Below, one piece after another: positions 1-3,762 of a DNA stretch of 64,000 bases (within the stretch, counting starts at the first letter, position 1; each line of letters starts with the position of its first letter). The DNA is taken from the NCBI GenBank assembly GCA_018609755.1, contig JAHENZ010000229.1, positions 1 to 64,000 of the forward strand, in the 5' to 3' direction. The notes below the pieces were generated by a model that made no database searches, was not told the origin of the DNA, and saw nothing but the letters and a program-made list of their open reading frames with translations. Both the position numbers and the translations under genes were made by a program. This DNA is from Salinivenus sp. (GTDB lineage Bacteria; Bacteroidota; Rhodothermia; Rhodothermales; Salinibacteraceae).

Positions 1-132
1 GAAACCCCTTTTCGCATTCGGCTTCTTTCAGTCCTGCCCTCACGGGCAGCGCCTTGCCTTCTGCTAATGATTCCTTACGACTTGGCTCACTCGGGACTTT
101 CACCCTCCAGCCTGTGAGTATGCATGGCACAC
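1..132 (-). mobile_element. 5' portion of a probable group II intron (truncated by the window edge)
   Basis: Minus strand from 132 reads GTGTGCCATGCATACTCACAGGCTGGAGGGTGAAAGTCCCGAG...AGCAGAAGGCAAGGCGCTGCCCGTGAGGGCAGGACTGAAAGAAGCC. It has a GUGYG 5' end and domain I-like strings (GGAGGGTGAAAGTCC; GCAAGG...CCGTGAGG...CTGAA(A/G)GAAGCC) typical of bacterial group II introns. No intron-encoded protein is visible in the window. Confidence 0.68.
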
Positions 133-133
133 A

Positions 134-168
134 TAAAAAAGCCCACCGCCGGCGAACCGACGGTGGGC
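134..168 (-). terminator. Rho-independent terminator of the xanthorhodopsin gene
   Basis: Hairpin GCCCACCG(CCGGCGAACCGA)CGGTGGGC at 141-168 with A6 at 135-140, i.e. a T-tract when read on the minus strand. Confidence 0.85.
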
Positions 169-203
169 CTACGGGAGCACAGTCCCGGAGAATGAGAAAT
201 CGT

Positions 204-1028
204 CTAGGCACTAGCAGTAACCGGCTCCGAATACTCGCCGACATCGAAGCCCTCTTCGATGGACTTCTGACGGGCGATGTTGTAGATCAGCACGCCGTAT
301 CCAGCCTTCGCCAGCACGTCGGCAATGGTATAGCCAACCTGGATCGCCGCAATCGTGCCCGGCGTCTCGGTTGGGTATCCACTAAAGGCCATCGGCACCA
401 TGTACACGAGGGGATAGAAGCCCCACGTGAAAAGCAGAAGCAGGCGGGCATTGCCCAACAGCGTCGCGACCTCGCTCGACTGTTTCTGTATCGTGTCCCC
501 TAGCTCCGTAAATAGAACGTAGAGCAAGTAGAGGAACGGAAGGGTGCTGAGGAAGCCCCAAAGACCGCGGGTGCCGAAGAAGCTGGCATCACCGCTAATC
601 TCACCGGGGTACCCGAGTGCGATCATGAGCGCAGCAGCAAAGCCAAGTTTGAAGGCCATCCAGCCACTTTCTCCTTTCGGCAAGTCCATCACGAGAACCA
701 GCTCCACGGTGAGCAGAGGGACCGTGAGGAGCCAGTCGACGTACCGGTACGCGTCATTGAACGGTTCGCCAGTGGGCTCGTAGGCCCCCATCGATTGGTT
801 GAGTGCATACGCACCTTCCCAACTGTTGAAGATGCGAAAGTAGTGGTAGCCGGCAATGAAGACAACCAGCGCCGAGACCATCATCGAAATCCGATACTTC
901 GGCGCAAGGTTTTTCTGTGCCAGAACAAAGAAGACGAACGCCGCCGCCATCGTTGCGACGGTAAACGAGAACATGTTATAGACCAGCGAATACTGCGCTG
1001 GAGATAACGTAGGCAGTTCCTGTAGCAT
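204..1028 (-). CDS. xop: Xanthorhodopsin-type light-driven proton pump
   Basis: Seven-TM rhodopsin. RYVDWLLTVPLLTVE carries the DTE proton-pump residues, ADVLAKAGYG carries the retinal lysine, and GTRGLWGFLS matches the glycine-containing helix E segment of Salinibacter xanthorhodopsin. SD GGAGG precedes the ATG. Confidence 0.95.
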   Translation of the reverse strand: MLQELPTLSPAQYSLVYNMFSFTVATMAAAFVFFVLAQKNLAPKYRISMMVSALVVFIAGYHYFRIFNSWEGAYALNQSMGAYEPTGEPFNDAYRYVDWLLTVPLLTVELVLVMDLPKGESGWMAFKLGFAAALMIALGYPGEISGDASFFGTRGLWGFLSTLPFLYLLYVLFTELGDTIQKQSSEVATLLGNARLLLLFTWGFYPLVYMVPMAFSGYPTETPGTIAAIQVGYTIADVLAKAGYGVLIYNIARQKSIEEGFDVGEYSEPVTASA

Positions 1029-1445: not shown

Positions 1446-2207
1446 CTACGACAGAGGGGCAGAAGACCGTTGGCGCTGTAGCTCTTTCAGCGAGTCGTGT
1501 GAGCCAAAGAGAAGGAGGAGGATACCCTTTACGACTAGGCAATTCGTGACGAAGAAAAACGTGGCCTCTTCGAGCGGGAGACCAAAGGGCGCAATTCCGA
1601 GCGTGAACGTATCTGCGATCGTCCAGATACCAGACGCGATTGCCGTCGCGTCGGCCACCCAGAGGTAGACGGTGGGGATCCCGATTGCGTACAACAGCAC
1701 CGATCGGTGGGCCCAGAGCGTTTCGCCGTCGTAGATCCACATGCCGGTTAGGAGAGGGGCGGCCCAGGTGAGAATGAGCCCCAGGTACACCCCGTTCGCT
1801 GCATCCGCCAGCAGGAGTCCAAGGCCGAGCAGGGAGAGAGCTCCAAACAGCATTGTGCCAATCCATCTCCCAAAGACGGACCGAGGGTTCGGCGCTGGGT
1901 CTCGGCGAGCAAGATACTGAAAGGTAAAGAGACCGGTGAGGATTGGTTGGAGAAGAAAGAATGCGTACTCTTCTATGGGTACGTATCCGATTGTGGCGAG
2001 GACCCGATCCGGTCCGTACCACCACACCTCCCGCGCCACGAGGTAATTGTCCCACGGCGCGGTGTAGGTAAATGCGATCCCACAGACCAGTGGCAAGGCC
2101 CACCGTGCCCGCCATCCGCCCAGGGACGAGAGCGATTCCGGAAGCGTTGCCCACAGAAATACGATTGGGGGCAACAGGAAAATAAGGTGGAATGTCGCGT
2201 ACGACAT
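1446..2207 (-). CDS. crtYcd: Lycopene cyclase, fused CrtYc-CrtYd type
   Basis: Multi-TM protein with duplicated lycopene cyclase-domain motifs (FTYTAPWDNYLV...GYVPIEEYAFF and APFGLPLEEATFFFVTN). Confidence 0.85.
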   Translation of the reverse strand: MSYATFHLIFLLPPIVFLWATLPESLSSLGGWRARWALPLVCGIAFTYTAPWDNYLVAREVWWYGPDRVLATIGYVPIEEYAFFLLQPILTGLFTFQYLARRDPAPNPRSVFGRWIGTMLFGALSLLGLGLLLADAANGVYLGLILTWAAPLLTGMWIYDGETLWAHRSVLLYAIGIPTVYLWVADATAIASGIWTIADTFTLGIAPFGLPLEEATFFFVTNCLVVKGILLLLFGSHDSLKELQRQRSSAPLS

Positions 2208-2238
2208 AAGGCGGGTCGTTCTGTATGATCAAAAACGG

Positions 2239-3762
2239 CTACGCCAGGTCGGAGAGCATGACGCGAGCAGCATTCCGACCCGAGGCTCCCATGATGCCCC
2301 CACCCGGATGTGTGCTCGCTCCTGTGAGGTACAGCTCCTCAACTGGCCCCTTGTAAGACGACAGCCCCAATGCCGGCCGCCCAGCAAACATCTGGTCGAG
2401 GCTCATTTCCAAATGCATCACGTTGCCGCGAAAGAGGCCGAGGTGCCGCTCCAGCCACTCGGGGTGTTGGAAGAGCTGGCCGACGATGTGGTCGCGAATG
2501 CCCGGGGCGTACTCCTCAAACTGGGAGATGAGGCGGTCCGCCACAGTGTCAGCGACATCGGCCCACTGTTTGTCGTCCGTCATTTCATACGGGAAGTACT
2601 GCCCCCAGAGCCAGAGCACTTCACCACCCGCAGGCGCCAGGGTCTCGTCCGCCGCGCTGAACGTCATGGCCACGAGCGGAGGGTCGGTGGCCGGTCGTTT
2701 GCTGAGGTAATCACCGTAGGCGGTGTGCAGTTGGTCGAGGTCACGACAAAGCAGCTGGAGTCCGGTCCGTGCTTCGTCTCCAGGATGGGCCGTGTATTCC
2801 ACCGGTTGATCGAGCGCCAAGCGGAGCATCGCCCCGAACCCGTTTCCGATGCGGAGGCCATCCGCACGATCCGGCCGATACTCGGCGGGAAGAAGGTGAT
2901 CGAAGGTTTCCTTGGCATGTGTGGCAGCGCACACTGCGCGACTCGTGTAGATCTGGCCATTGACACGGACGCCCGTCGCTCGACCGTCCTCGACGAGAAT
3001 TTCCTCCACCGGAGCGCCCGTAACCACCTCACCACCATGGGCTTCAATGTGTCGACGGAGGGACTGGGTGAGTTCGCCGGATCCTCCTTCTGGGCGGGCA
3101 ACGCCTCCCTCATGGTAGAGTGCATGCCAGAGGGCAAAGGGACCGGTCAAAGGTTCCGTCGGGGGCGGTCCCGACTGTGCCGCCATCCACGCGATCAGCG
3201 TTTGTAGCTTCTCCTCCTCGAAGTACGACTTAACGACATGCTCGTACGGCCGAAGAATGTGCCGAAGCTCTTCGTACCAGGGGAGGGGAGTGGACTCCCC
3301 AAACACCATCCGCTTTCCGATTTGCCAGGGGGTAGGGGCAGCAAGGAAGAGATCCCGCATCGTGCGAGCAAAGCCCTGCCAGTCCTTCACGAATCGATAG
3401 TACGCTTCCCCTTCGCCCGGAAACAGCGACTCGATGTGATGTGCCGTACGATCAAGGTCACGGTAGATGAACACGGCATCCCCATCTGGAAATGGCGCCG
3501 TGAACATCGGGTCTAAGTCGATATAGTTGAGGCCGTAATTATCCAGTTCAAGTTCCTCAACCACCGGCGTTTGGCGAATGAGGATGTGTGCACTGCCGCC
3601 GAGATCAATCTGGTAGCCGGGGATCAACTCCTTCGTTGAAACGGCCCCGCCGACGATGTCCCGTCGCTCGAATACAGCCACACGAAATCCTGCTTGGGCC
3701 AAATACGCAGAGGAGATCAGGCCGTTGTGCCCCGCACCGATTGTGATTACGTCGTATTCCAT
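2239..3762 (-). CDS. FAD-dependent carotenoid oxidoreductase, CrtO-like ketolase / phytoene desaturase superfamily
   Basis: N-terminal dinucleotide-binding motif [37 protein letters not shown] and C-terminal [23 protein letters not shown]. Genomic context beside lycopene cyclase and xanthorhodopsin. Confidence 0.8.

Follow-up and report, generated by a model that had tools for sequence, protein, structure and literature searches.

The left end of the analysed window holds the beginning of a group IIC intron retroelement, lying in the sense direction immediately after the terminator of a rhodopsin gene; we put the probability of this overall reading at roughly 0.96. The copy at this site belongs to an ORF-less subtype, here called I2, and is most likely helped in trans by the RT-maturase of a second subtype, I1. 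The window, that is, the whole stretch of DNA under analysis, comprises 64,000 nt and equals contig C229 of a 328-contig draft genome, its base 1 being the contig end.

Read along the minus strand, a hairpin (170 to 139) comes after the rhodopsin gene (1028 to 204), then a T-tract reaching to 133 and, from 132 onwards, the intron (Table 1). A sequence-only reading of this DNA had proposed a group II intron directly behind the xanthorhodopsin terminator, and this placement is borne out: both stem and T-tract are present, and 132 is precisely the first base of GTGTGCCATGC. The sequence which that reading called domain I-like is matched by RF02001 (D1-D4) from 49 to 1 with an E-value of 0.0015 in spite of being cut by the edge; longer copies elsewhere in the genome reach 111-116 bits with RF02001, and both RF02001 and RF01998 score above their cut-offs on sister copies. 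Furthermore, the 132 nt in the window are identical at 132/132 positions to a full I2 copy on contig C60. The contig stops at window base 1 because the element is repeated; the truncation recognized by the sequence-only reading is a contig end, and the class which it had left open is group IIC. When the whole window was scanned with Rfam at the gathering threshold, a tRNA was the sole match, a consequence of the truncation of the intron piece. Matches to a Brucella sRNA and to a snoRNA in the window were weak, far below the cut-offs, and were rejected. Beside the rhodopsin gene, positions 1446-3762 contain an amine-oxidase-family protein and a weak match to lycopene cyclase (25.7 bits against a cut-off of 27); these may be carotenoid genes that serve the rhodopsin.

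Table 1. Features at the left edge of the window (window coordinates)
Feature	Position	Strand	Remarks
5' 132 nt of ORF-less group IIC intron, subtype I2	1..132	-	starts GTGTGCCATGC at 132, cut by contig end at 1
Rho-independent terminator of rhodopsin gene	133..170	-	14-bp stem, TTCG loop, T-tract ending TTAT; predicted target motif: stem-loop, IBS1 = TTAT
Proton pump gene of the bacteriorhodopsin family (xanthorhodopsin-like), lying upstream of insertion	204..1028	-	Pfam PF01036, E=9e-37

The contig downstream of the insertion, C83, was identified by synteny. It begins with the 3' end of I2 (domains V-VI) and runs on into miaA (PF01715). Five relatives (G009, G008, G005, G007 and G003) have a match to its flank on the downstream side of the rhodopsin gene, and miaA follows the rhodopsin gene in all five of the relatives examined at the locus, which joins the window to miaA. 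In the four relatives with a readable site (G009, G008, G005 and G007), the terminator is present without the intron and the aligned region is uninterrupted, while the match in G003 ends before the terminator site. The absence of the element from related genomes at this locus, proposed earlier as a check, was thus observed wherever the site could be read. Domain V, another feature to be expected of a group II intron, is found on the joined contig: the domain V-VI end scores 39.5 bits with RF00029 (E=5.4e-6), 0.5 bit under the curated cut-off. Taken together with RF02001 and RF01998, covariance models match on the window, the sister copies and C83. Domains V-VI of the ORF-bearing copies are not among the RF00029 matches listed. 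The complete window copy would measure 621 nt, with 132 nt in the window, the last 139 nt on C83 and nt 133-482 taken from the complete copy on C60. As the assembly is a draft and the contig ends inside a repeat, the junction could in principle be a chimera, with the intron not truly located behind the rhodopsin gene; this is highly improbable, however, since C83, which bears the opposite end of this subtype, runs into miaA, the gene next to the rhodopsin gene in 5/5 relatives. A search for intron D1 in 40 relatives gave no match in any other genome, and a search for the source of the intron in about 400 genomes of the phylum returned short conserved-core matches only.

The first 140 bases of the intron recur at contig ends throughout the genome, and at least nine copies begin with the same bases behind a terminator, so the arrangement of terminator and intron is not due to chance. 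Nine 5' flanks (I2: C229, C214 and C60; I1: C169, C233, C230, C232, C141 and C132) and nine 3' flanks (I2: C83, C19 and C132; I1: C241, C142, C109, C87, C69 and C101) were collected; those ends of C60 and C101 at which a complete copy lacks a usable flank on one side were left out of the bookkeeping. These flank counts suggest about nine copies, approximately six of I1 and three of I2, the window copy being one of the latter. I1 is complete on C101 (L016:4506-2617, minus strand), where it spans 1890 nt and encodes an RT-maturase of 468 amino acids; I2, complete on C60 (L017:622-2, minus strand), spans 621 nt and has no RT. Identity between the two subtypes amounts to 86% across the first 407 aligned positions and to 84% across the last 87. 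Within each subtype, the end sequences that were read, of up to 139 nt, show no difference. One RT was found in the genome, identical copies being collapsed in the assembly and the ORF being read in the C101 copy of I1. An RT-maturase, which the sequence-only reading had proposed to look for, is present in one of the sister copies of this genome; as the copy in the window is ORF-less, no RT is expected within 3 kb to the left. The terminator following the tmRNA gene (RF00023, 151 bits; L014:2908-3278) has one I1 copy directly behind it, and the gene downstream of the I1 copy on C101 (L016:2617-1158), as read from its ORF, is presumably enolase.

The assignment to group IIC draws on the RNA, and the RT matches lean towards IIC proteins. 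The intron ends read GTGTG...GAT throughout, in agreement with GUGYG at the 5' and AY at the 3' end, and domain VI has a bulged A near the 3' end, both in the sequence and in the fold of I1. Domain V features a CGC triad with a G-U inside and an AU or AC (AY) bulge; as CGC is the domain V triad of IIC introns (PMC7923331), triad and bulge fit this class. In an alignment of domain V from I1, I2 and five related introns, 98.9% of the cells are paired and five pairs show double changes, an agreement that is destroyed by sliding the pairing partners. The I1 protein matches TIGR04416 with 389.9 bits and contains RVT_1 and GIIM domains; no endonuclease domain is listed for it in the Pfam search. Amongst solved structures, the GsI-IIC RT is its best match (355 bits), followed by 7uim (313 bits), as against 134 for LtrA. 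Over its length, the RT is at most 48% identical to any relative found, and insertion just past terminators is also frequent for the g6, U1 and U2 types (PMC8919778), both of which could speak for a group II intron whose IEP belongs to a different class, such as g6 or an unclassified one; with the CGC triad in domain V and a IIC protein as the best solved relative, we consider this unlikely.

The insertion sites agree with a group IIC intron, too. A terminator stem with a T-rich tail ending at the junction is found in 9/9 of the 5' flanks as compared to 450 of 127,480 window positions (0.35%) under the same fixed test, and the first base of the 3' flank is a T in all nine, the site consensus being mostly TTDT/T. 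Together with the IIC features of domain V, this supports the class C target preference by which the sequence-only reading had explained the location. Insertion of class C introns after terminators has long been known (PMC8919778, PMC4424553), and ORF-less introns of bacteria, which are rare, almost always occur beside related introns with proteins that might assist them (PMC4424553); with both behaviours in the literature, the element is ordinary in kind. A related intron in genome G093 also lies behind a terminator-like hairpin, as read from the sequence, beside a 5S rRNA gene. A tandem arrangement is seen in genome G098, where a related intron begins immediately after the apparent end (domains V-VI) of a different group II intron (L101, around 2490, minus strand).

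Lacking an RT, the ORF-less copies might be dead remnants, a single such intron having been spread by recombination or DNA duplication rather than by retromobility in trans. We regard this as quite improbable: the copies occupy three separate sites with exactly the same boundaries and no flanking sequence in common, each 5' flank is a terminator, and the copies are identical where read. In addition, I2 differs from I1 by eight paired double changes, and 9/9 one-sided changes keep the pair, in a structure predicted from the same two sequences, which argues for I2 as a working RNA kept under structural constraint. In domain IV of I2, 39 collinear bases resemble the RT ORF, but 16/300 shuffles score as high, so no ORF remnant is recognized there. 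The identical ORF-less copies were probably spread in trans by the RT of the related intron. We lean slightly towards an autonomous/non-autonomous IIC pair, in which a 621-nt intron without ORF, structurally intact at about 14% divergence from the RT-bearing partner, would be using that partner's RT to spread actively to terminators, comparable to a short element riding on a long one.

Splicing, mobility and assistance in trans are inferred for the element. In group IIC, a complex of intron RNA and its reverse transcriptase reverse-splices into DNA after a terminator stem-loop, with the site chosen through short IBS1 pairing (mostly TTDT here) and IBS3 (T), and the inserted RNA is then copied into DNA. 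For the I2 copy in the window, the RT-maturase of the 1.89-kb I1 in the same genome would most likely carry out both splicing and movement in trans.

With the group IIC introns B.h.I1, GsI-IIC and Ta.it.I1, the element shares the CGC triad, the location after terminator stem-loops, a T at the IBS3 position and the sense orientation, and its RT resembles theirs in that Pfam lists no endonuclease domain for it; it differs from them in that its RT is at most 48% identical to any relative found and that an ORF-less subtype coexists. The IBS1/IBS3 consensus of group IIC-attC introns, TTGT/T (PMC7923331), fits most sites here. Their targets differ, however, as those observed here are terminators and no attC sites or cassettes were seen on plain reading of the nine sites. 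As in trans-helped bacterial ORF-less group II introns (PMC4424553), an ORF-less intron lives with a related RT-bearing one, but here the class is IIC and three identical copies are present, with help in trans being the likely route. The element contributes a further example of a multicopy group IIC intron, from a bacterial genus that bears rhodopsin; intron-free sites exist in relatives, and its natural ORF-less partner would permit a clean test of trans mobility in class IIC.
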